From the NCBI GenBank assembly GCA_020852835.1, contig JADZAC010000020.1:1-39203 (forward strand): a DNA stretch of 39,203 nucleotides. Reading direction: 5' to 3'. Both the position numbers and the translations under genes were made by a program. Positions 962-39,134 of the stretch are shown here, piece after piece. Under the pieces are notes generated by a model. The model made no database searches. It had not been told where the DNA came from and saw only the letters and a program-made list of their open reading frames with translations. The stretch is from Flavobacteriales bacterium. GTDB lineage: Bacteria > Bacteroidota > Bacteroidia > Flavobacteriales_F > PHOS-HE28. Positions within the stretch are counted from its first letter, which is position 1. Each line of letters starts with the position of its first letter.

Positions 962-2941
962 TCAAAGCACGGTCACTTCGGTCCTTCTGTTCTGTGCGCG
1001 GCCCTCGTCGGTGTCGTTGGTGGCCACGGGCCTTGTTTCGCCGTAGCCCTTGGCCAGCACGCGGGCGGCATCAATGCCCTGGTTGATCAGGAATTCGCGC
1101 ACGGCGTTGGCGCGCTGTTCGCTGAGCTGCTGATTGGCGGCATCGTTGCCCACGTTGTCGGTGTGGCCGCCCACCTCAATGCGCAGGGCCGGCGTGGCCT
1201 TCATGAGCCCCAGCAGGTTGTTGAGCTCCACCGTGGAAGCGGGCAGCAACGCATAGCTGGCCGTTTCGAAAAAGATGTTGCGCAGGGCGAAGGTTTGGCC
1301 GCTCTCCGCCTTGGACAGCTGCACATTGAGCTGGAAAGGCGTGTTGCCGTCCACTGCGCTGAAGCTGTAGTTGCGCGAGAAGAAGAGGTAGCCTTCGGCC
1401 GTGGCGTTGAGCGCATGGTCTACCCCAATGGGCAGGCACACGAGGAATTCGCCCGTTTCGGGATCGCTGTATGCCGCGGTGGCCAGCTTGCCCGTGGCCA
1501 GGTCATACAGTTTCACATCGGCCTCCAAGGGCTTGCCGGTGGCCTTGTCGGTAACGCGGCCGCGGATATAGGTGACCGGGGTGGGCCGAGCTTCCTGGTA
1601 GAGTTCAAAGCCGTAGAGGTCCAGGTCGCCGAAGCCGCCCTCCCGGTCGCTGGCGAAGTAGGCCAGGCTGCCGTTGGCATCCACCAGTACGCTGTTCTCA
1701 TCGCCGCCGGTGTTGATGGGCCAGCCCAGGTTCATGGCTTCGCCCCAGGAGCCGTCGGGCTTCATGCGGCTCATGTAGATGTCCAGGCCGCCCATGCCGG
1801 GCCGCCCGTCGCTGCTGAAGTAGAGCGTTTTGCCGTCGGGGTGTATCTGCACGCTTTCCTCCTTACCCGCACTGTTCACGTTGGGGCCGAGCAGCTCGGG
1901 CTTGCCGAAGGTGCCGTCTTCGCCCATGCGGCTCACATAGATGTCGGTGTTCTGCTGGCCGTCGCGGCTTCTGGCGCCCCGCAGGAAGTAGAGGGTGCGC
2001 CCGTCACTTCCCATGGATGGCTGGCTTTCCCAACCGCCGGTGTTCACGGGCGGGCCCATGTTCTGCGGCTTGCTCCAGCGGTCGCCCACGCGCCGGCTGA
2101 TGAAGAGGTCGCAGCTGCCCAGGCCTTTGAGGCCTCCGCCGTAGGAGCCGTCCATGCCGGCGCACTGGGTGAAGATGATGAAGCGCCCGTCCGGCGTGAG
2201 GGTGCCTGCTCCTTGGTTGTCCACCGTATTCACCGTGGTGATGGGCTGGGCCTTGCCCCAGGTGCCATCCTGCTGCTTGTGGCTCACAAAGAAGTCTTCC
2301 TGCACGCCGTAGGGGGAGCGCTGGTCCTTGACCAGGCGGGTGAGCATCAAGGTGCTGTCATCCACAGTGACCGCCGGGAAATACTCGGGCTCTGCCGTGT
2401 TCACGCCGGGCCCCAGGTTCACCGGTTCGAACGGTACGGGCAGCTTCATGGCGTGCTCCGCGAAGTCGGCATTGGCGATGCCGCGCGTGGCGCGTTGCCG
2501 CCGTTGCGGGTCGTTGTCGTGCTGCTTGGCCAGGTTGAAGTGCTTTCGCGCCTCGTCGTACAGCCCTTGGCCCATCTCGAGCTCCGCCAAGTGCAGCGCG
2601 GCTGGCGGGAAATAGGCGGGGTTGATGGCCAGCACTTCGCGATACACGGCCATGGCCTCCTTGGCCAGTTTGCGCTCCTCATACATCTCGGCGAGGTAGA
2701 TGCGCGGCTCCAGGAAACGCGGGTCTTCGGCCGCTGCCTTTTTCAAATTGCCCTCGGCGCAATCCCACTTGCGTTGGCGCATGCACTCCGCCCCGCTCTC
2801 GTACAGTTTGATGGCTTTGCCATTGGTGGTGGTGTAACGGGCGGGCTGGGCCAGCAGGCCCGTGGCCAGGCCCATTGCACACACACCGGCCAGTGCCGCC
2901 CGCAGGTGGTTGCCTGCTAGGCGCCATGCGGCGTTGATCAT
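962..2941 (-). CDS. OmpA family protein with TPR, PD40 propeller and carboxypeptidase-regulatory-like domains
   Basis: The product has 659 residues. A signal peptide (hydrophobic run ending GLLAQPA, about residue 33) leads into TPR-like helices (about 40-150), then PD40/WD40-like propeller blades (about 180-450; repeats such as DGRTLYFLRG and DGKTLYFSSDGRPGMGGLDI). A short CarboxypepD-regulatory-like domain (about 457-540) follows, then an OmpA peptidoglycan-binding domain (about 550-659, with GGHTDNVGNDAANQQLSEQR and NRRTEV). It should sit in the periplasm or outer membrane holding peptidoglycan. The same domain order occurs in PorE of the type IX secretion system, but the lipobox cysteine of PorE is absent, and many paralogues share this layout. 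The start at 2941 overlaps the queE stop as ATGA, so it is probably translationally coupled. Confidence 0.9.
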   Translation of the reverse strand: MINAAWRLAGNHLRAALAGVCAMGLATGLLAQPARYTTTNGKAIKLYESGAECMRQRKWDCAEGNLKKAAAEDPRFLEPRIYLAEMYEERKLAKEAMAVYREVLAINPAYFPPAALHLAELEMGQGLYDEARKHFNLAKQHDNDPQRRQRATRGIANADFAEHAMKLPVPFEPVNLGPGVNTAEPEYFPAVTVDDSTLMLTRLVKDQRSPYGVQEDFFVSHKQQDGTWGKAQPITTVNTVDNQGAGTLTPDGRFIIFTQCAGMDGSYGGGLKGLGSCDLFISRRVGDRWSKPQNMGPPVNTGGWESQPSMGSDGRTLYFLRGARSRDGQQNTDIYVSRMGEDGTFGKPELLGPNVNSAGKEESVQIHPDGKTLYFSSDGRPGMGGLDIYMSRMKPDGSWGEAMNLGWPINTGGDENSVLVDANGSLAYFASDREGGFGDLDLYGFELYQEARPTPVTYIRGRVTDKATGKPLEADVKLYDLATGKLATAAYSDPETGEFLVCLPIGVDHALNATAEGYLFFSRNYSFSAVDGNTPFQLNVQLSKAESGQTFALRNIFFETASYALLPASTVELNNLLGLMKATPALRIEVGGHTDNVGNDAANQQLSEQRANAVREFLINQGIDAARVLAKGYGETRPVATNDTDEGRAQNRRTEVTVL

Positions 2942-3549
2942 GGAATGTTCAGGTATTTGTGTGTTTGCAGGGAGATGCGCCAGCGCGGCCGGGCCAGGGA
3001 GTAATTCACCACCAAGGGGACCATGGTATCGCGCTTGCTCCATTCGGGCTGGAGGTAGCAGCTGCAGTCCGCCCGCACCAAGGCGGCATGGCTTTCGGCC
3101 CATTGCAGATCGTGCTTGTTGAAGACCACCACCTTGAGCTCATCGGCCAGCTGGTGGAAGCCCGGCACCGGCGGTTTGAATTTTTTCGGGCTGAAGCAGA
3201 TGTGGTGCCAATGGCCGCTGAGCGGCGAGGTGCCGCTGGTTTCCAAATGGGTGCGGAAGCCCGCATGGCGCAAGGCTGCGGTGAGCGGGCCCAGTTCATG
3301 CAGCAGCGGTTCACCGCCGGTGACCACGGCAATGCGGGCCGGGTGGCGGAGGGCTTCGGCCACGATCGCCTCCACGGCCACCACCGGGTGCCGGGCGGCA
3401 TCCCAGCTCTCCTTCACGTCGCACCAGGAGCAGCCCACATCGCAGCCCGCCAGGCGGATGAAGTATGCGGCTTGGCCGGTGTAAGCACCCTCCCCTTGCA
3501 AGGTGAGGAAGGCTTCCATCACGGGCAGGAGGCTACCGTCGTTGGTCAT
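2938..3549 (-). CDS. queE: 7-carboxy-7-deazaguanine synthase QueE
   Basis: This 203-residue radical SAM protein makes 7-carboxy-7-deazaguanine from 6-carboxytetrahydropterin, the committed ring-contraction step toward queuosine. Evidence: the N-terminal LPVMEAFLTLQGEGAYTG, the CxxxCxxC cluster motif as CDVGCSWCD, VVTGGEPLLHELGPL (GGEP, SAM binding), and the HLETSGT and CFSPKK segments typical of QueE. The ATG at 3549 was chosen because the family starts close to the MEAFLTLQGEG motif; an upstream in-frame start at 3603 would add a meaningless 18-residue leader. It overlaps the downstream ompA-like gene by 4 bp. The other queuosine genes are not in the window. Confidence 0.93.
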   Translation of the reverse strand: MTNDGSLLPVMEAFLTLQGEGAYTGQAAYFIRLAGCDVGCSWCDVKESWDAARHPVVAVEAIVAEALRHPARIAVVTGGEPLLHELGPLTAALRHAGFRTHLETSGTSPLSGHWHHICFSPKKFKPPVPGFHQLADELKVVVFNKHDLQWAESHAALVRADCSCYLQPEWSKRDTMVPLVVNYSLARPRWRISLQTHKYLNIP

Positions 3550-3564
3550 GGGCGGGAAAGCAGG

Positions 3565-3572
3565 CAAAGGAA
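3565..3572 (-). promoter_or_regulatory. -7 promoter element of the queE-ompA operon
   Basis: TTCCTTTG reads toward queE and has one mismatch to TAnnTTTG. It ends 15 nt before the chosen ATG. No clear -33 TTTG is seen. Confidence 0.4.
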
Positions 3573-3929
3573 GTGCCGAAGCGGCGGGACAAAAAAAGCC
3601 CACACAGGACCGAGTTCAGAAAACCCATGGATCACATGAGCGGGTCGGACAGAAAGAGTTCAGTAATCCTCGATGTTCCCGAAGGATACCACCCGCAGGT
3701 GGCGAGGCCCGCCTTTGCTCCTTGGATCTTCCGACCCTGAGGTAGAAATGTTGGTTTTGAGAACCTATGGCCTGTGTGGGCTGGCTGTTGATCAGCTCAC
3801 GGCTGAGAAAGAACGCTTCCGTGGTCCGAAGGTACGTTCTTTTTTCCGGAATGGGGAATGAGTTGTGAACGATCGGGAGCAGGAGGCAGCAGAAACTGGA
3901 GGAAGCAGGCAGAGGCAGTGGGCAAAGTA
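3573..3929. other. Intergenic region without a supportable gene
   Basis: About 360 bp separate queE from the end of the next minus-strand gene. Base composition is visibly lower in GC than the neighbours, with T-rich runs (for example TTCTTTTTTCC near 3837-3847). Short open frames exist on both strands but none has a promoter-like element, a recognisable domain or the codon pattern of the neighbours. I see no tRNA, no good terminator hairpin and no terminal inverted repeats. It may be a decayed element or a long untranslated region. Confidence 0.4.
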
Positions 3930-3974
3930 TCACCTGCGGTGCAGCACGAACAGCTTCGCCTTGCGCTCCACGAA

Positions 3975-4517
3975 CTACCCCTCCCCTTTCTGGCCCACGA
4001 ACTGGTCCTCCTTGTCTTCGAAGAGGATGTTGAAGGTGGTGAGACTGCCGTAGCAGCGGGTGATATACTGCTGGAGTTCCACCTTGTCCTGCTCGCTGAT
4101 GCCGGTATGGGCATTGATCTTCTGTTCCAGCACCCGGAACCGGTCGCGGATCATCACGATCTTGTGAAAGAAATCTTCGATGGGCACCTCCTTGCTCTTC
4201 AGGGAGGCGTCGCGCGGTTTGATCTCCATGGTGCCGCCAGCGTAGCGCCGGGCCATTTCCACCGGGCGCTGCGGCGTTTGCAGCTCTTCGAGCACTTCGC
4301 GCAGCGCGTCGCGCACATGGTCCAGGTCCAGTGGTTCGGGTTCCACCTCCACGCCGGGGGCGATCACCCGCAGGCCTTCGAAACTGCGGCTCACCGGCTG
4401 TTCGCCGTGGTCCTTGAAGAAGATGTGCACGGTGCGCGGATCGAGGTCGAACACCACACCGGTGCCCAGAGTGGGGTGCGCCACGCGTGCACCAATGCCC
4501 AGGTCGTTCAATTCCAT
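3975..4517 (-). CDS. Conserved hypothetical protein (KOW/CarD-like N-terminal fold, helical C-terminus)
   Basis: The 180-residue product begins MELNDLGIGARVAHPTLGTG, then VVFDLDPRTVHIFFKDHGE. This looks like a small beta-barrel of the KOW/tudor or CarD type (about 1-50), followed by a charged alpha-helical region (about 70-170). I do not recognise a named family; the N-terminal fold call is inference. The ATG at 4517 is preferred over an upstream TTG at 4541. It lies 39 nt after the M14 peptidase stop and could be co-transcribed. The frame stays open in a plausible coding register for 14 codons past the TAG, ending at 3930, so the C-terminus may be truncated by a nonsense change. Confidence 0.7.
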   Translation of the reverse strand: MELNDLGIGARVAHPTLGTGVVFDLDPRTVHIFFKDHGEQPVSRSFEGLRVIAPGVEVEPEPLDLDHVRDALREVLEELQTPQRPVEMARRYAGGTMEIKPRDASLKSKEVPIEDFFHKIVMIRDRFRVLEQKINAHTGISEQDKVELQQYITRCYGSLTTFNILFEDKEDQFVGQKGEG

Positions 4518-29856: not shown

Positions 29857-30045
29857 GCAAGAAGCAAGCCTGCCGGCCCCGCTCCCGGGCCATCCCATGG
29901 GGCGCGCATGGCCGCGAACTCCGGATCGCCGCCCTTTCTGCCCGGAGCGCAAACCCTTCCGGTGAACAGGTGTTGAACGGCGAAGTGCGGCACGGGCCCG
30001 GATCAAGGGCCAATGCAGTCCATATCCCGTTGCGGCACCTCCTGT

Positions 30046-30053
30046 TATTTTAC
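30046..30053 (+). promoter_or_regulatory. Weak -7 promoter element of the macroglobulin gene
   Basis: TATTTTAC keeps TAnnTT but not the final TG. It lies 19 nt before the ATG at 30073 in a 216-bp gap that holds nothing else I recognise. Confidence 0.25.
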
Positions 30054-30072
30054 AGGCCTGATCCACCCAAGC

Positions 30073-33000
30073 ATGTACCGTACCCTGCGTTCCATTCCGC
30101 TGTTGGCCTTGCTCTCCCTGCTCGCATGTACGCAGCGCAACACCGGCGAGCGCCCCGGCGATGCCTTCATCCCCTATGTAAAGGCTTTCACTTCCGGCCA
30201 CATTTCCGCGCGCTCCCCGGTGCGCGTGCGCATCGCGGAGGGCCTCACCCTGAAGGACACCGGCCATGCCGCGCTGCAAGGCTTGTTCTCCCTGAGCCCT
30301 TCCGCCGAAGGCACCGTGGACTGGATGGACGACCGCACATTGGCCTTTACGCCGGCCAAGCGCTTTGAACAGAACACGGAGTACACCGTGACCTTCCGCC
30401 TCGGCAAGCTCACCGAAGTGCCCGACCAACTGAAGGACTTCAAATTCTCCTTCACCACGTTCGCGCAGCAGATCGACCTGCGGGTGGAGGACTTCGTGCC
30501 CGTCAGCCCTGCGGACCTCACCTGGCAACGCGTGGTGGTGGGCGTGTTCACCAGCGATGACGCCACCGGCCAAGACCTGGAAGGCGGCGTGAAAGCCACG
30601 CAGGACGGGCGCCTGCTGAAGATGACCTGGGAACACGAACCCGGCGGCACGCTGCACCGCGCCGTGGCCGACAGCGTGCTGCGGGGCGCCAAGGCCAGCA
30701 CCGTCGAATTCACCTGGGATGCCGGCCGCATCGGAGGCAAGGGATCCGGCAGCCAAACCTTCCACGTGCCCGCCATCGGCGACTTCAGCCTCATCTCCTC
30801 CTCCACTTCCACCGAGGGCGAACAGTGCGCCACGCTCCTCTTCAGCGACCCGCTGGATCCCGCGCAGGACCTCAGCGGCTTGGCGGGCATTGCCGGCGCG
30901 GACAAGGTGCGCCTGGCAGCTACCGGCAACAAGCTCCTGCTCTACCCGGAGCAGCGCCTCACCGGCGACCAAAGCGCCTTCGTGGCCGCGGGCCTCAAGA
31001 ACATCAACGGCTTTGCCCTCGGCAAGGACCTCACCGTGGACCTGCTCTTCGAGGAAGTGAAGCCCAATGTGCGCGCGGTGGGCAACGGCACCATCCTGCC
31101 AAGCACCGACGGCCTGCTCTTCCCCTTCGATGCAGTGAACCTCAATGCAGTGGATGTGCGCATTGTGCGCATTTATGAGGACAACATCCCGCAATTCCTG
31201 CAAGTGAACAACCTCGACGGCGAACGCGAACTCGCCCGCACCGGCCGCTTGGTGCTGAAGCGCACCGTGCCGCTCAACGCCAAGGAGGCCGCGCGGCCCG
31301 GGGCATGGAACCGCTACTACCTCGACCTGGACAAATTGATCAAGGCCGAACCCGGCGCCATCTACCGCATCCTCATCGGCTTCCGCCAGGCATACAGCAC
31401 CTACCCCTGCGGAAAGGCACCCGCCCCAGCGCCCTTGGTGGAGCAAGAGCCGGAACCAACGGATGAGGCGCAATGGGACGAGCCGGAGCAGTACTACTAC
31501 AACGACTACTACTACGAGGAATACGATGAGGGCGAATACAACTGGAACGACCGTGGAAACCCCTGCACCGCCAGCTACTTCCGCGACAAGGGCAGCGTGT
31601 TGCAGCGCAACATCCTCGCCTCCGACCTGGGAATGATCGCCAAGCGCGCGAACGACGGATCCCTGCTGATCGCCGTGAGCGACCTGCGCACCACGGAACC
31701 CGTGAAGGGCGTGGAGATCAAGGTACTGGACCTGCAACAGCGCGCCATGGCCACGGTAACCACCGAACGCGACGGCATGGCCATGGTAACCTCCACGGCG
31801 CACAAGCCGTTCCTGCTGGTGGCCTCCAAGGGCCCGCAGCGCGGCTACCTGAAACTGGACGACGGCAGCGCGCTCAGCGTAAGCAACTTCGACGTGGGCG
31901 GGGAACAAGTGGACAAGGGCGTCAAGGGTTTCCTCTATGGCGAGCGCGGCGTGTGGCGGCCGGGGGATCCGCTCTACCTCACCTTCATTCTGCACAAAGC
32001 GCAACAGGCGTTGCCCAAGGACATTCCGGTGACGCTCGAACTCAGCGATCCCCAAGGCCGCCTGGACCAGCGCATGGTGCGCACCAGCGGCGTGGACGGC
32101 ACCTACTCCTTCCACTGCTCCACTTCCGCGGATGCGCCCACGGGCGTGTGGGGTGCGCGCGTCACCGTGGGCGGCACTTCCTTTTACAAGCCGCTGCGCA
32201 TTGAAACCGTGAAGCCCAACCGCCTGAAGATCCTGCTGGACCTCGGCGGCGACAAACGTTTTACCGGTGATGGAAAACCCGTGCAGCTGCAGGGGAACTG
32301 GCTGCACGGCGCCCCCGCCAGCGGCCTGAAGGCCCGTGTCTCGGCCACCATCACGCGGTCCAGCGCCGAGTTTGCCGGGTATACGAAGTACACCTTCAAC
32401 GACCTGCGCAACGACCTGAGCACGGAGGAAATGCCCTTGTTCGACGGCACGCTGGACGCCAACGGCCACGCCTCCTTCCCCTTTACGCCGGACCTGAACG
32501 CCAATGCCCCCGCAGCCGTGCGGGCCAACGTGGTCACGCGCATCTTCGAGGCCGGCGGCGATGCCAGCATGGACCGCACGGACCTGCTCTACTACCCCTA
32601 CACCAGCTATGCCGGGCTGCTGCCCGCCGAGCCTTCAAGCGAATGGGGCGGCTACTTCACCGACACCACTTACGCCTTCGGGGCCGTGGCCGTGGCGCCC
32701 GAGGGCAAGCCCCTCGCGAAGCACACGCTGAAAGTGCAGGTGGTAAAGCTGGGCTCAAACTGGTGGTGGAGCGGTGACATGGACGATCCCGCCAACTACA
32801 TGTCCGCGCCCAGCACCCGCGTGCTGAAGGAGGAAGAGATCACCACCGATGCCCAAGGCAAGGCCCGCTTCAACTTCCGCGTGGACCGCCCGTTGTGGGG
32901 CGTCTTTCTCGTGCGGCTCAGCGACCCGGCCAGCGGCCACGTGGCCGCAACGGAACTGTATGTGGACTGGCCCGGCTACGGCGGACGCAGCCGCCGCGAA

Positions 33001-35670
33001 AATGGCAAGGCCGCAGCCATGCTCACCTTCAACACGGACAAGGCGAAATACGCCGTGGGCGACCCATGCACGCTCACCATCCCCAGCTCCGGAAAGGGCC
33101 GGGCACTGGTGAGCCTGGAAAGCGGCAGCCGCATCCTCCAAGCCAACTGGATCGAGCTCAAGGAGAAAGAAACCAAATACAGCTTCGCCATCACCAAGGA
33201 CATGGTGCCGAACATCTACGCGCACGTCACCCTGGTGCAGCCGCACGCGCTCACCGCCCCGGCCGACAGCAGTGGCGGCAATGCCGGCAATGACCTGCCC
33301 ATCCGCATGTACGGCGTGGTCCCCGTAATGGTGGAAGATGCGGCCACGCACCTTTCCCCGATCATCGGTACCGCCGCGGAATTCAAGACCGACAAGCCCT
33401 TCACGGTGGAGGTGGCCGAGAAGGACGGCAAGGCCATGACCTACACCTTGGCCATCGTGGATGAAGGTTTGCTGGACCTCACCCGTTTCAAAACGCCCGA
33501 CCCATGGGGCTACTTCCTGGCGCGCGAAGCGCTGGGCGTGCGCACCTGGGACCTGTACGACCAGGTGATCGGCGCCTTCGGGCAGCGGCTGCGCCGCGTG
33601 CTTGCGCTCGGCGGCAGCGACCAGGTCGACCCCGCCGCAGCGGCCAAGGCGCAACGCTTCAAGCCGGTGGTGCATTTCGTGGGCCCGTTCAAGCTGGCCA
33701 AGGGCGCCAAGGCAAAGCACACCTTCACCATCAGCAACTACGTGGGCAGCGTGCGCGTGATGGTGGTGGCTAACAACCCCGGCGGAGCCTACGGCAGCGC
33801 GGAGAAGGCGGTGCCCGTGCGCAACCCGTTGATGCTGCTGGCCACCCTGCCGCGCGTGGCCGGCCCCGGCGAAACCGTGGACCTGCCCGTCACCGTGTTT
33901 GCCATGGACCCCAAGGTGAAAAACGTGCGGCTCAAGCTTGCCGCCAACGAACTCTTCAACGTGGTAGGCGGGTTGGAACAGGCGCTCACCTTCACCAAAA
34001 CCGGCGAACAGACCGTCACCTTCCGTGTAACGCTGAAAGACCGCATCGGCGTGGGCAAGGTGACACTGACCGCCGAAGGTGCCGGTGAAAAGGCCGCACA
34101 AAGCATCGAGATCGACGTGCGCCAAGCCGGCCAGCCGGAAACGAACGTCACCGAAACCGTGGTGGAGCCCGGCGCCAAATGGGAAGGCGCCCCGGAAGCC
34201 ATCGGCATCGCCGGCACCAACAGCGCCTACCTCGAATTGAGCACCCTGCCACCGGTGGACATGGGCCGCCGCCTGCAATACCTCATCGACTACCCGCACG
34301 GCTGCCTGGAGCAGACCACCAGCAAGGCGTTCCCGCAGCTCTTCCTGGCAGATGTGATGGACATGAGCGACGCAGGGCGTGACGAGATGCGCCGCAACGT
34401 GCAGGCCGGCCTGGGCAAGCTGAAGCAATTCCAAGTGGCGGGCGGCGGGTTCAGCTACTGGCCCGGCAACCGCGACGCCGATGATTGGAGCTCCACCTAC
34501 GCGGGACACTTTATGGTGGAAGCCGAACGCATGGGTTTCACGGCCCCGCCGGGGGTGAAGGATACTTGGCTCACCTTTATGCGCAACCAGGCGCGCAACT
34601 GGGCGCCCGGCGAACGCGATACGTGGAGCCGCGCCAGCAGTGAACTGGCCCAGGCCTACCGCCTTTACGTGCTGGCACTGAACAACACGGCCGAAGCCGG
34701 GGCCATGAACCGGTTGCGCACCACACCAGGCATCTCCGCGCAGTCGCGCTGGATGCTCGCCGCAGCCTACGCCCTCAACAACCGCAACGACGTGGCCCGC
34801 GAGATCGCCAAGAACCTCACCACCAGCGTGCAGCCCTACCGCGAATTGGGCTGGACCTACGGCAGCGGCCTGCGCGACCAGGCCGTGATCGCAGAGGCCC
34901 TGATGCGCATGGACGACAAGGCCGCAGCGGCGGGCGTGGTGCGCGACATCTCCGCGAAGCTCAGCAGCGGCGAATGGTACAGCACCCAAAGCACCGCCTG
35001 GGGCCTGCTCGCCGTGAGCCGGTTCGCCGCCGGACAAGACCTGGACAAGACCATGCACTTCACCTCCATGGTGAACGGTAAAACGGAAAACCGCGTAAGT
35101 GCAAAAGCCATCGTGCGCCTGGACCTCCCCGCCCCCAACGGCCAGCGCAAGATCTCCATCGCCAACACCGGCAAGAACCTGATCTACCTGCGCCTGGTGC
35201 GCACCGGCACCCCCTTGGCCGGGCAGGAAACGCCCGCCAGCCAAGGCCTGGCCATGGAAGTATCCTACCGCACCATGGACGGCAACGCGATCGATCCCGC
35301 CACGCTGGACCAAGGCACCGACTTCCAGGCCGTGGTAACGGTGCGCAACCCCGGCACGCGCGGCAACTACCAGGAACTGGCCTTGACGCAAGTGTTCCCC
35401 AGTGGCTGGGAGATCCGCAACAGCCGCCTGGAGGGCACCGGGAACGCCATCGTAAACGGTCCCTACAACTACCAGGACATCCGCGACGACCGCGTGCTCA
35501 CCTATTTCAACCTTGCCGCCGGCGAAGCCGTGACCTACCGCGTGCTGCTCAACGCCGCCTACACCGGCCGCTTCCATTTGCCCGGCACCACCTGCTCCGC
35601 GATGTACGACAACACGGTGAACGCCCGCAACGGTGGCCAATGGGTGGAGGTAAGGGCTCCCGGGCGGTAG
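30073..35670 (+). CDS. Bacterial alpha-2-macroglobulin lipoprotein
   Basis: The 1865-residue product is a lipoprotein (LLALLSLLACTQ, Cys19). It has MG-type beta domains, a bait-region middle part, and the thioester motif CLEQ at 1411-1414 within YPHGCLEQTTSKAFPQLF, followed by the alpha/alpha thioester domain (GGGFSYWPGNRDADDW) and a receptor-binding-like end (YDNTVNARNGGQW). Such proteins trap attacking proteases covalently in the periplasm. A Tyr/acidic insertion (about 455-500, with EQYYYNDYYYEEYDEGEYNW) is unusual. The ATG at 30073 gives the lipobox; the in-frame ATG at 30013 would bury it. The usual partner penicillin-binding protein 1C gene does not follow; instead an RHS fragment begins inside the last codons. 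Confidence 0.93.
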   Translation: MYRTLRSIPLLALLSLLACTQRNTGERPGDAFIPYVKAFTSGHISARSPVRVRIAEGLTLKDTGHAALQGLFSLSPSAEGTVDWMDDRTLAFTPAKRFEQNTEYTVTFRLGKLTEVPDQLKDFKFSFTTFAQQIDLRVEDFVPVSPADLTWQRVVVGVFTSDDATGQDLEGGVKATQDGRLLKMTWEHEPGGTLHRAVADSVLRGAKASTVEFTWDAGRIGGKGSGSQTFHVPAIGDFSLISSSTSTEGEQCATLLFSDPLDPAQDLSGLAGIAGADKVRLAATGNKLLLYPEQRLTGDQSAFVAAGLKNINGFALGKDLTVDLLFEEVKPNVRAVGNGTILPSTDGLLFPFDAVNLNAVDVRIVRIYEDNIPQFLQVNNLDGERELARTGRLVLKRTVPLNAKEAARPGAWNRYYLDLDKLIKAEPGAIYRILIGFRQAYSTYPCGKAPAPAPLVEQEPEPTDEAQWDEPEQYYYNDYYYEEYDEGEYNWNDRGNPCTASYFRDKGSVLQRNILASDLGMIAKRANDGSLLIAVSDLRTTEPVKGVEIKVLDLQQRAMATVTTERDGMAMVTSTAHKPFLLVASKGPQRGYLKLDDGSALSVSNFDVGGEQVDKGVKGFLYGERGVWRPGDPLYLTFILHKAQQALPKDIPVTLELSDPQGRLDQRMVRTSGVDGTYSFHCSTSADAPTGVWGARVTVGGTSFYKPLRIETVKPNRLKILLDLGGDKRFTGDGKPVQLQGNWLHGAPASGLKARVSATITRSSAEFAGYTKYTFNDLRNDLSTEEMPLFDGTLDANGHASFPFTPDLNANAPAAVRANVVTRIFEAGGDASMDRTDLLYYPYTSYAGLLPAEPSSEWGGYFTDTTYAFGAVAVAPEGKPLAKHTLKVQVVKLGSNWWWSGDMDDPANYMSAPSTRVLKEEEITTDAQGKARFNFRVDRPLWGVFLVRLSDPASGHVAATELYVDWPGYGGRSRRENGKAAAMLTFNTDKAKYAVGDPCTLTIPSSGKGRALVSLESGSRILQANWIELKEKETKYSFAITKDMVPNIYAHVTLVQPHALTAPADSSGGNAGNDLPIRMYGVVPVMVEDAATHLSPIIGTAAEFKTDKPFTVEVAEKDGKAMTYTLAIVDEGLLDLTRFKTPDPWGYFLAREALGVRTWDLYDQVIGAFGQRLRRVLALGGSDQVDPAAAAKAQRFKPVVHFVGPFKLAKGAKAKHTFTISNYVGSVRVMVVANNPGGAYGSAEKAVPVRNPLMLLATLPRVAGPGETVDLPVTVFAMDPKVKNVRLKLAANELFNVVGGLEQALTFTKTGEQTVTFRVTLKDRIGVGKVTLTAEGAGEKAAQSIEIDVRQAGQPETNVTETVVEPGAKWEGAPEAIGIAGTNSAYLELSTLPPVDMGRRLQYLIDYPHGCLEQTTSKAFPQLFLADVMDMSDAGRDEMRRNVQAGLGKLKQFQVAGGGFSYWPGNRDADDWSSTYAGHFMVEAERMGFTAPPGVKDTWLTFMRNQARNWAPGERDTWSRASSELAQAYRLYVLALNNTAEAGAMNRLRTTPGISAQSRWMLAAAYALNNRNDVAREIAKNLTTSVQPYRELGWTYGSGLRDQAVIAEALMRMDDKAAAAGVVRDISAKLSSGEWYSTQSTAWGLLAVSRFAAGQDLDKTMHFTSMVNGKTENRVSAKAIVRLDLPAPNGQRKISIANTGKNLIYLRLVRTGTPLAGQETPASQGLAMEVSYRTMDGNAIDPATLDQGTDFQAVVTVRNPGTRGNYQELALTQVFPSGWEIRNSRLEGTGNAIVNGPYNYQDIRDDRVLTYFNLAAGEAVTYRVLLNAAYTGRFHLPGTTCSAMYDNTVNARNGGQWVEVRAPGR

Positions 35671-38291
35671 GCAACGACCTCACCTACGATCACGCCACGC
35701 ACTACAGTTACGACATCCACGGCAACGTGAAGGAACTGGTGCAGGACAACCCCCAACTGGCCCTGGATGCAGGTGCCACCACGCCGGACGACCCCGCCTT
35801 TGCCTGGCACCGCTACAAGCACATCGCTTACACCTACGACCTGATCAGCGGCAACGTGAAACAAGTGGACTACCAGGAGGACCGCCCGGACCAGTTCCAC
35901 CACCGTTACGAGTACGATGCCGATAACCGCATCTCCCGCGCCGGCACCAGTGCCGACGGCCTGCTCTGGTACAAGGACGCCGAGTATTTCTACTATCCCC
36001 ACGGCCCCTTGGAACGCGTCGAGCTCGGTCAATCCAACGTGCAGGGCGTGGACTATGCCTACACCTTGCAAGGCTGGCTCAAGGGCATCAACAGCGACCG
36101 CCTTACACCCCTCAACGACATGGGGCTGGACGGTGCTGAAATCAATTTCAACCCCAACAAGTATGTAGGGCGTGATGCCTTCGGCTTCTCCATCGCCTAC
36201 TTCGGCGATGCCGACTACCAGGCCATCCACCCGGGCCGTTGGAACAACCAGAACGGGAAGCGCCCCTTCGCCCCCGCCGGCAGCGCGGGGTCCGTGGCCG
36301 CCCTGCAGCGCCCCCTTTACAACGGCAACATCGCCCGCACCGTGCAGAGCCTGCAGCCCTTCGGCCTCTGGACCGCCTATGCCCAACCAGGCCAGGTGCT
36401 GGCACAGGTATACCGCTATGACCAGCTCAACCGCCTGAAGAGCGCCCGCGGCGTGGACGGACTTACCGACCTGAACACCTGGCACAACGTCAACGACCCC
36501 GTGGTGAACCGCTACCTGAGCGAATATGCCTACGACGCCAACGGGAACATCCTCACCGCCGACCGCTGGAGCAACCAGGGCGCGGTGTACGACCAACTGC
36601 GCTACAAATACCAGGGCACCCAACCGCAGGGCACCCCCCCGCCCCCCTCCCGGGCCGTGAACAACCGCCTGTATGAACTATACGATAACGACCCCGGCAC
36701 GGCCGACAACCCCACACCGGACGACATCCGTGCCCCCGTAGACCCCAACACCACCCCGCCGGGTACCCCGCACCTGATCCCCGGCCCCGTGAACGGCACC
36801 ACCAACTACCGCTACGACGAACTGGGCAACCTGGTCCACGACACCCGCGAACAGGTCCAGACCATAACCTGGACCGTGGCCGGCAAGGTGGCCGCCGTTG
36901 AGCGCACCGCCGGCAGCAGCCGCCCGCCCCTGGCTTTCGGTTACGGGGCCGATGGCCAGCGCATCTCCAAAACGGTGGGCGACCCATTGAACGGCGGTTA
37001 CCGGGAGTACTACCTTCGTGATGCCCAAGGCAATGTGATGGCCATGTACAAGTACGCAGGCAACGGAACGAGCCTGAAGGCAACGGACCGCCCGATCTAC
37101 GGCAGCAGCCGCTTGGGCAGCTACGCCCGGCCCATGGAACTGATGGGCCAAAGCGGCACCCTGCCCCCGAGTTTCAGCCATCCCATACAGCGGGTGCACC
37201 TGCGCTATGAACTCACCGACCACCTGGGCAATGTGAGCGCCGTGGTTACTGGGCGGCTGCTGCCCGTTACCAATTACAGCGGTGGTTACGAGGCGGAGCT
37301 GGTAAGCGCACAGGGGTATGAGCCCTTCGGGTCCCTGCTGCCCGGGAGGAATTACAGCAGCTCCAGCTACCGGTTCGGGTTCCAGGGACAAGAGAAGGAT
37401 GACGAAGTGTACGGGGCCACAGGCACGAGCTATGCGTTCGAGTACAGAATGCACGACCCCAGGGTGGGCAGGTTCTGGAGCATCGATCCATTAGCATTTA
37501 TGTTCCCATGGAACTCACCGTATGTGTTCAGTGAAAACCGTGTGCTTGACATGGTTGAGCTTGAAGGGTTGGAAGCTGCACCTACTGAAGACAAGAAACC
37601 CATGGATCCAGGTGCTATCGACAAAGTGGAAGATTGGTCCATCACGAAACAGAGACCAAGTAATTTCATGGCGGATGATAACGTTCCGTCTGACCCATCT
37701 GAAACAGCACCTCCTGTAGGAAATGCGCCAAGTCCGTTCTCCAATAGTAGATTATTTACCCCGAAGCCGGGAGTAGGTGCTCTTCGGGGGCCGTCGGTTT
37801 CAGTTGCGGGGCCTAATTGGGGCTTGAAACGAAAGTCTGATGGTATTGGTCATTCATGGTCAATATTTGATGCGATTAACGCCCATAATTCATTGAATGA
37901 TAAATTTGGTTTTGGCATTTCATTAAGTTCTACGATGGTAGGTGGAGTAGTTGGATCAGAATTGAATACACAATATAAATATCAGTCACCCACTGTGGCC
38001 GCTGATAGGTCGGTTGCCAAATTCCTGGGTAGAGCAAGGAAGGGGCTAACTCTTATAAATAAAGCAATGGGTATTAGTGATGTTATTAATCATAGCTCAT
38101 CTATGATTCATAATTTCAGATTAGGTAATTATCGTGATGGTTTAATTGATGGGGCTAAAGTAGGATTTGACGTATGGTTAAACTTTACGCCAGCTGGCCG
38201 AGTTGCAAGAATTGCGAAAACTGGAATTGGATTAGGATATGGTTATATGGAAAGTTCAGGAATGCTTAACTGGGATTACTGGAGTAAATGA
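35640..38291 (+). pseudogene. 5'-truncated RHS-repeat protein with AT-rich C-terminal tip (orphan polymorphic toxin candidate)
   Basis: The open frame from 35640 has 883 codons but no signal peptide and no natural start; the RHS reading becomes family-like at about SRAVGNDLTYDHATHYSYDI (35658 on). YD repeats follow (YEYDADNRISRAGTSADG; YAYDANGNILTADR; YRYDELGNLVHDTREQ; YYLRDAQGNVMAMY), then the Bacteroidota RHS end block EPFGSLLPGRNYSSSSYRFG and DPRVGRFWSIDPLA (ending 37496). The last 264 residues (620-883) are coded by AT-rich DNA and are not recognised; they include Gly-rich hydrophobic stretches (FGFGISLSSTMVGGVVGSEL; RVARIAKTGIGLGYGYMESS). This layout is that of a polymorphic toxin tip. 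The first 31 bp overlap the macroglobulin end in another frame. It may be silent, or translated by reinitiation after the macroglobulin stop. Confidence 0.75.
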
Positions 38292-38698
38292 AAATATTAA
38301 TTCATATTTACGCAAAAATTATGGCTTCCGTAATGCTTATGGAGGGAAAGAATGATAACTGGTATGTCGTAATTGATTCATTATTTAAATTACTGATTTT
38401 TATTTTAATATCTATTCTGCCATTCGTTATAGGTTTGTTATATGTGTTTGATATTGCTGAAAATAGCCAAACTATAGCTAATATTAGTTTCATAGTTCCA
38501 GCAATTATATTCATACTTATGGTGTTGTTTTTTTTCACAAGAAGAAATGAGATTTATCAAGAACGCGACTTGATTTTGGCAAATGAAGAAGATAAAGTGC
38601 GAACTCGTAAGTATGCGAACCGTGTTGTTTCTATGGCGTTATGTGTATTTGCTATAGAGTTTATAATAGTAGCCTCATATTTCATGCTTGCCGGGTAA
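38288..38698 (+). CDS. Small membrane protein, candidate immunity protein of the RHS tip
   Basis: The 136-residue product has three strong membrane segments: KLLIFILISILPFVIGLLYV, IANISFIVPAIIFILMVLFF and VVSMALCVFAIEFIIVASYF, with a short charged stretch (ARKYANR-like, REIYQERDLILANEEDK) between the last two. It overlaps the RHS stop as ATGA, so it is coupled to the tip. Its DNA is very AT-rich (28% and 27% GC in two 60-nt lines counted by hand), matching the tip and not the rest of the window. By position it is the cognate immunity gene; membrane immunity proteins usually answer membrane-acting toxins. I recognise no family. No start alternative is needed. Confidence 0.7.
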   Translation: MKILIHIYAKIMASVMLMEGKNDNWYVVIDSLFKLLIFILISILPFVIGLLYVFDIAENSQTIANISFIVPAIIFILMVLFFFTRRNEIYQERDLILANEEDKVRTRKYANRVVSMALCVFAIEFIIVASYFMLAG

Positions 38699-38710
38699 GT
38701 ACCCCCTAGC

Positions 38711-38755
38711 TGGCGCAAGTGTTCGGCGCGGGTAGGAATGAGCGAGGGCGGCCCG
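38711..38755 (+). repeat. Palindromic repeat, copy A (3' truncated)
   Basis: About 45 nt starting TGGCGCAAGTGTTCGGC agree with copy C at all but three positions, then the sequence diverges and lacks the closing CACTTGTGCCA arm. Confidence 0.75.
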
Positions 38756-38791
38756 CCCCCCGCACTCGCTCGCGTGCCCCTACGCGAGGCA

Positions 38792-38816
38792 CGCGCCCGG
38801 CTTTTTGCCGGGTGCG
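38792..38816 (+). terminator. Terminator-like hairpin after the immunity gene
   Basis: CGCGCCCGGC, loop TTTTT, GCCGGGTGCG form a 10-bp stem with one G-U pair, followed by TTTG. The T-tail is short, so termination strength is uncertain. Its left arm overlaps a rival stem (38771-38778 with 38788-38795). Confidence 0.45.
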
Positions 38817-38858
38817 TTTGCATTGTAGGGCCGTAAGCCTCCGGCCAACTACCCTAGA

Positions 38859-38916
38859 TGGCGCAAGTGTTCGGCCTGGGAAGGAATGAGCGGGGGCGGG
38901 CCGGTCACTTGTGCCA
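38859..38916 (+). repeat. Palindromic repeat, copy B (58 bp)
   Basis: The unit opens with TGGCGCAAGTG and closes with CACTTGTGCCA, which pair along 11 bp with one G-U. It differs from copy C at three of 58 positions. Confidence 0.85.
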
Positions 38917-38935
38917 TACGTGTTCAGTCCCCCGC

Positions 38936-38993
38936 TGGCGCAAGTGTTCGGCGTGGGGAGGAATGAGCGAGGGCGGGCCGGTCACTTGTGCCA
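38936..38993 (+). repeat. Palindromic repeat, copy C (58 bp)
   Basis: Same unit as copy B, starting 77 bp further on. Both keep the central GGAATGAGCG block and the GGGCGGGCCGG block before the closing arm. Each copy is preceded by a C-rich CCC(T)AG/CCCGC motif. Confidence 0.85.
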
Positions 38994-38999
38994 CTACTG

Positions 39000-39101
39000 C
39001 TACACGCCTTCGGCCAGCTCCAACACACTTTGCAGGTGCGCTTCCAGCGCTTGGCGCTGCCCGTCGCTGAGGGCGGAGCCGAGCTTGCGGGCCAGCCCCC
39101 G
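39000..39101 (-). pseudogene. 3' fragment of a protein gene
   Basis: On the minus strand a clean coding-like stretch ends ARKLGSALSDGQRQALEAHL then QSVLELAEGV and a TAG at 39002..39000. Going upstream the frame meets TAG at 39104..39102, exactly where the next palindrome begins, and there is no start codon. It looks like the last 30 or so codons of a gene cut by the repeat. The amphipathic helical end does not identify the family. Confidence 0.45.
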
Positions 39102-39103
39102 CT

Positions 39104-39134
39104 AGCGCGGATGTTGCTGGTTTGGATCTGTGCT
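39104..39134. repeat. Palindromic element of a second type
   Basis: AGCGCGGAT and ATCTGTGCT pair over 9 bp (two G-U type pairs) around a 13-nt loop, preceded by CCCCCGCT as in copy C. It recalls the GCGCGGAT/ATCCGCGC dispersed palindromes common in Bacteroidota genomes, from memory. Confidence 0.5.

Follow-up and report, generated by a model that had tools for sequence, protein, structure and literature searches.

The RHS fragment behind the alpha-2-macroglobulin gene

What kind of element begins directly behind the alpha-2-macroglobulin (A2M) gene of this Flavobacteriales genome, and do its two reading frames form a toxin/immunity pair? The window, that is, the whole stretch of 39,203 bp that was analysed, is one entire contig (C20) of a 96-contig genome that is 99.3% complete. 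The features considered here all lie on the plus strand:

30013-35670, plus strand: A2M gene, 1885 aa, intact (Pfam bMG3/A2M_BRD/MG2/bMG10/TED), the landing site
35640-38291, plus strand: ORF of a 5'-truncated RHS gene, 883 aa
35668-35682, plus strand: junction from the A2M stop codon to the truncated rhs core, set by the limits of DNA similarity
35682-37568, plus strand: C-terminal RHS core (54-62% identity, TIGR03696), about 3,450 N-terminal residues missing
37569-37680, plus strand: linker common to another module (97% identity in G006:C43)
37681-38291, plus strand: pair-specific tip, putative toxin, about 200 aa (homologue in G008:C49)
38281-38284, plus strand: GGAG, presumed ribosome-binding site, 3 bases upstream of the ATG of the putative immunity gene
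38288-38698, plus strand: putative membrane immunity protein, 136 aa, three hydrophobic helices, ATGA overlap
38704-38993, plus strand: 65-bp repeat with 12-bp inverted ends, three copies (related copies at RHS loci of other species)
38750-38832, plus strand: second, hairpin-rich repeat, also found behind the other RHS orphan of this genome (C65)

The RHS core that the first-pass annotation had placed in the 35640-38291 frame is present. Residues 560-643 (37317-37568) matched TIGR03696 (Rhs_assc_core) with 33.2 bits, above the curated cut-off of 32.5 bits and thus within the RHS family, and the core scored 39.2 bits in the genome-wide search. It is 54-62% identical to full-length RHS proteins of 4.3 kaa from the same genus, with the alignment starting at about their residue 3,450. 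Full-length RHS proteins of the genus comprise about 2,400-4,400 residues (2,425-4,384), and a Sec-type signal peptide (judged by eye) and DUF6443 were seen in the two that were examined; the window fragment has neither.

The stop codon of the A2M gene is located at 35668-35670. DNA similarity with the A2M genes of relatives reaches 35651 (35670 in one relative), and similarity with full-length rhs genes begins at 35682. At its C-terminus, A2M reads VEVRAPGR before the stop, in alignment with VEVVQPGK before the stop in the relatives; the A2M gene is therefore intact, and no more than ~12 bases separate its stop codon from the rhs fragment. At 35640, the first ATG of the RHS frame is still within the A2M gene, which is read in another frame, and precedes the RHS similarity (from ~35682); the RHS fragment itself thus shows no recognisable start. 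Two marks of an orphan module, the absence of the N-terminal delivery part and of an own translation start, were thus found in the window.

FWSIDPLA, which had been taken for the end of the core, is not its end. When the closest relatives were compared, the conserved core continued for ~23 residues more, to ENRVLDMVELEGLE, and in those relatives to SPYAFSENRVLDMVELEGLE. Therefore, the tip comprises ~240 residues instead of 264. It opens with a linker of ~34-37 residues that is 97% identical to that in G006:C43, where an unrelated tip follows. From the core through the tip to the small gene, the GC content decreases from 60-69% (0.64) to ~42% and 31%, and that of third positions from 82% to 31% and 29%.

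The tip and the downstream membrane protein gene

The description of the tip as unrecognised was upheld, as searches against Pfam, NCBIfam, PADLOC, PHROGs and PDB sequences gave no usable family match. A tip-only scan of genome contigs and a core-end scan of viral contigs revealed no relatives, and none was found in a plasmid search. Among the tips surveyed in the genus and in a wider set of loci, the only homologue was that of G008:C49 (27-31% identity). This tip is also carried by a truncated core, and 7 bp behind it begins a gene whose 130-aa product has three hydrophobic helices. The tip family thus has two known members, neither of which is carried by a full-length rhs gene; the first-pass annotation had held that absence from full-length relatives would speak against its reading, and in part this is the situation found. 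The AlphaFold model of the tip had a pLDDT of 30.

The stop codon of the tip and the start codon of the small gene overlap as ATGA at 38288-38291. The encoded 136-aa protein has the three membrane helices first ascribed to it, as hydrophobic segments that begin at residues 35, 66 and 116 (Kyte-Doolittle means of 2.9, 2.8 and 2.3). Its predicted structure was an all-helix bundle of low confidence (pLDDT 61). Searches of Pfam, NCBIfam, PADLOC and PHROGs gave no usable match; weak matches to Phycodna capsid, FILTED and CARF_2M resembled hydrophobicity matches and were rejected. Promoter motifs of the Bacteroidota type (TTTG-TAnnTTTG) or the sigma-70 type were in no excess over chance near the pair.

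No sequence similarity was detectable between the 136-aa protein and the 130-aa protein of G008:C49. At least three hydrophobic segments were present in only 4 of the 52 small-ORF neighbours of tips in the genus, and in 7/102 in the wider set. Because such neighbours are rare, the three-helix layout beside both tip homologues is unlikely to be accidental (about 0.07), which is not decisive.

A putative toxin/immunity pair and its alternatives

The 5' truncation, the small ORF that regularly follows RHS tips in the genus, the drop in GC and the homologue with a three-helix neighbour bear out the initial reading of the locus as an orphan RHS tip with its immunity gene. That the RHS fragment and the small gene constitute an orphan module is held with high confidence, and from sequence the tip and the 136-aa protein are likely a cognate, putative toxin/immunity pair. 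Taken together, we consider it probable that the locus is an orphan RHS toxin/immunity module behind the A2M stop codon, consisting of a truncated core, a linker, a tip and the cognate immunity gene, with a membrane-acting tip and a silent rhs fragment.

The tip would be a membrane-acting toxin, most likely a depolarising one of the pore or ionophore type, because it shows no recognised enzyme motif and has a polytopic membrane protein as its neighbour; the neighbour carries most of this argument. Another reading of the same orphan module, which we regard as possible though clearly less probable, makes the tip an enzyme that attacks lipids or works in the periplasm and that is stopped at the membrane by the membrane protein. 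Several RHS tips of the wider set (L192, L194, L235 and L256) contain a lipase-like GHSxG motif, and there too small polytopic membrane proteins follow; moreover, the window tip is devoid of a strong transmembrane helix (Kyte-Doolittle maximum of 1.05). However, neither GxSxG nor any other catalytic motif is conserved between the two tip homologues, and the tip has no family match. Since lipase-like tips also have polytopic neighbours, pore formation is favoured but unproven, and among the membrane-acting options it has about even odds.

Several points were counted against the preferred explanation: the small size of the tip family, without a member on full-length rhs, the dissimilarity of the two small membrane proteins, the tip's lack of a strongly hydrophobic helix together with its low-confidence model, and the unclear genus-wide relation between hydrophobic tips and polytopic neighbours. 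In addition, the fragment could be decaying rather than kept. The pair would then be truncated rhs debris from a rearrangement, with neither gene functional now, a reading that we likewise hold to be a minor possibility. It accords with a fragment that has neither a start codon nor an export signal of its own, in a genome devoid of full-length rhs, and with more gene debris and repeats at the contig end. On the other hand, both frames are fully open, with a chance at the local base composition of about 7e-8 for the 240 codons of the tip and 1e-5 for the 136 codons of the small gene, and the latter has GGAG and a coupled start. In addition, the core differs from that of G006 by a dN of 0.16 at a dS of 1.66, although much of this constraint may predate the truncation.

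It is improbable that the 136-aa gene is an unrelated membrane gene that adjoins the tip by chance. The membrane neighbours of the homologous tips share no sequence similarity, as this would predict, but the ATGA overlap, the low GC content that the gene has in common with the tip, and the small-ORF neighbour at 52/60 genus tips argue against it.

Under the preferred reading of an orphan module with a cognate pair, the rhs fragment is probably silent, for lack of start and export signals, whereas the immunity gene may be expressed. The immunity gene would still be translatable and could protect against relatives that deploy this tip, and the tip could return to use by recombination, within the core, with a full-length rhs gene.

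Genome context

It had been proposed that the cassette was moved away from a full-length rhs gene. A full-length rhs gene of the same genome was looked for, and the genome-wide search revealed neither such a gene nor an N-terminal rhs part in the assembly. The only other RHS core is a small fragment, a 355-aa frame on C65; the window module is thus a solo orphan with no resident parent, and the proposed local origin was not borne out.

In six close relatives, a lipoate-ligase-like gene (lplA) is located closely downstream of A2M, and RHS was found behind A2M in none of the stretches examined from 29 relatives. In the window's own genome, lplA is found on C15, where the contig end, with sequence that recurs in the RHS arrays of G006 and G032, is 1.2 kb away. 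From this we infer, as the simplest reading, that the gap between A2M and lplA probably holds an RHS array whose repetitive middle is unassembled, and that the window pair is probably the first module of this array. A secreted-looking ORF of ~270 aa (G000:C15:91258-92455; L160) precedes lplA at the place where relatives have A2M, and the contig end follows.

Least probable is an assembly artefact in which A2M was misjoined to an RHS fragment from elsewhere: the assembly is of the metagenome type with 96 contigs, the contig ends in repeats 505 bp past the module and 0/29 relatives have this arrangement, but lplA lies beside another contig end with RHS-array sequence, as a real insertion predicts, and other orphan modules of the genus likewise start right behind conserved genes.

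Orphan modules in the genus and in other Flavobacteriales

RHS cores were found in 23 of the 45 genomes of the genus. According to a script count, in which orphans were frames of <1,000 aa uncut by the contig, plus the window's own, orphans make up about 40 of the 62 RHS modules. An ORF of 60-360 aa follows 52 of the 60 complete tips at -45 to +30 bp. A further 79 loci, mostly from Flavobacteriales, contained 78 orphan modules in 41 loci, and 102/122 complete tips had such a small-ORF neighbour; some of these loci overlap, so that a few modules were counted twice. Up to five modules occur per 8-12-kb locus (L199, L215, L223, L224).

From these counts, orphan modules are ordinary in Flavobacteriales. 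As for the suggestion that they are less described in Bacteroidota, they are very common in the Flavobacteriales genomes, although no publication on this subject was found in the literature searched. Hydrophobic tips had been considered as predictors of polytopic neighbours; this was dropped, as the relation was weak across the genus (p = 0.054). Between two orphan RHS modules of G006:C43 (L075, 2456-2993), a two-gene unit resembles a toxin-antitoxin pair of the RelE/ParE type.

Possible landing sites and trailing repeats

Small orphan modules are preceded by a TPR lipoprotein-like gene in G000:C65 (about 52,900), G006:C163, G032:C209 and G042:C38, and by an S1/P1-nuclease-like gene in G004 and G006:C21; these gene names were given by eye and not by profile. 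The tips at landing sites behind the same gene do not match each other. This suggests that orphan RHS modules have preferred landing sites. In several species, a terminator lies together with the conserved gene ahead of these modules (L149 and L161; L128, L146 and L132; L140 and L145).

Behind the window module, the 65-bp repeat occurs at 38704-38768 (partial), 38852-38916 and 38929-38993, with the 12-bp inverted ends TGGCGCAAGTG and CACTTGTGCCA. Related copies were seen within a few kb of RHS modules in other species, and also elsewhere (L179, L178, L137, L145, L077, L133). The repeat is therefore not confined to RHS loci, as had been considered: many copies in other genomes, above all in G005, have no RHS similarity nearby. 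A short repeat common to another genome's module was detected in 38/58 RHS 3' flanks of the genus (L067-L149) and in 0/49 control flanks of other genes, a limited control taken mainly from the neighbourhoods of the window and of A2M. Between the repeats and the contig end, the minus strand of 39000-39110 carries the C-terminal remnant of another ORF, ending in LGSALSDGQRQALEAHLQSVLELAEGV.

It is conceivable, though we consider it rather doubtful, that the orphan modules of the genus are dispersed cassettes of a core stub, a tip, an immunity gene and trailing repeats, which land recurrently, in different species, behind the stop codons of the same conserved genes. In such a system, unrelated tips would arrive at the same site, and the repeats or the core stub would drive movement independently of full-length rhs.

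Comparison with known systems

Orphan rhs-CT/rhsI and cdiA-CT/cdiI modules are known from Enterobacteriaceae (PMC3150448; PMC3967940). As in the window, their truncated toxin gene keeps some of the core without a start or export signal, and the immunity gene lies directly downstream. They are also alike in forming arrays with several modules per genome. In contrast to the window module, which is located behind A2M in an assembly without full-length rhs, they follow the full-length gene, although for orphan modules such a locus is usual rather than obligatory; their function has been shown, whereas that of the window module is presumed.

Ionophore CdiA-CT toxins have a five-helix fold and hydrophobic immunity proteins that diverge faster than the toxins (PMC11630599); a small hydrophobic immunity protein, putative in the window, is encoded directly downstream in both cases, and the dissimilarity of the two small proteins beside the homologous tips recalls this faster divergence. 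No sequence relation to these toxins was seen. Tse5 of Pseudomonas aeruginosa is a pore-forming RHS effector (PMC10684867; PMC9637101) and resembles the window protein in combining an RHS core with a C-terminal tip that acts on membranes, as presumed for the window. However, Tse5 is a full-length protein that a type VI system delivers, whereas the window has a truncated core with ELEGL at its end instead of a DPxG motif. No PDB chain matched the tip in sequence. The TANFOR polymorphic toxins of Bacteroidetes have strongly diverging immunity proteins directly downstream (PMC7073777), but they have another carrier domain and a DNase tip, and the term 'orphan' is absent from that paper.

The kind of module is therefore already known; what is new is the tip family with its membrane partner and the landing site behind A2M. 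Beyond Enterobacteriaceae, for which they were known, orphan RHS cassettes occur commonly in Flavobacteriales, and they can be located far away from any full-length rhs. If it is true that repeats or fixed sites move such cassettes, the spread of polymorphic tips between loci would become testable.
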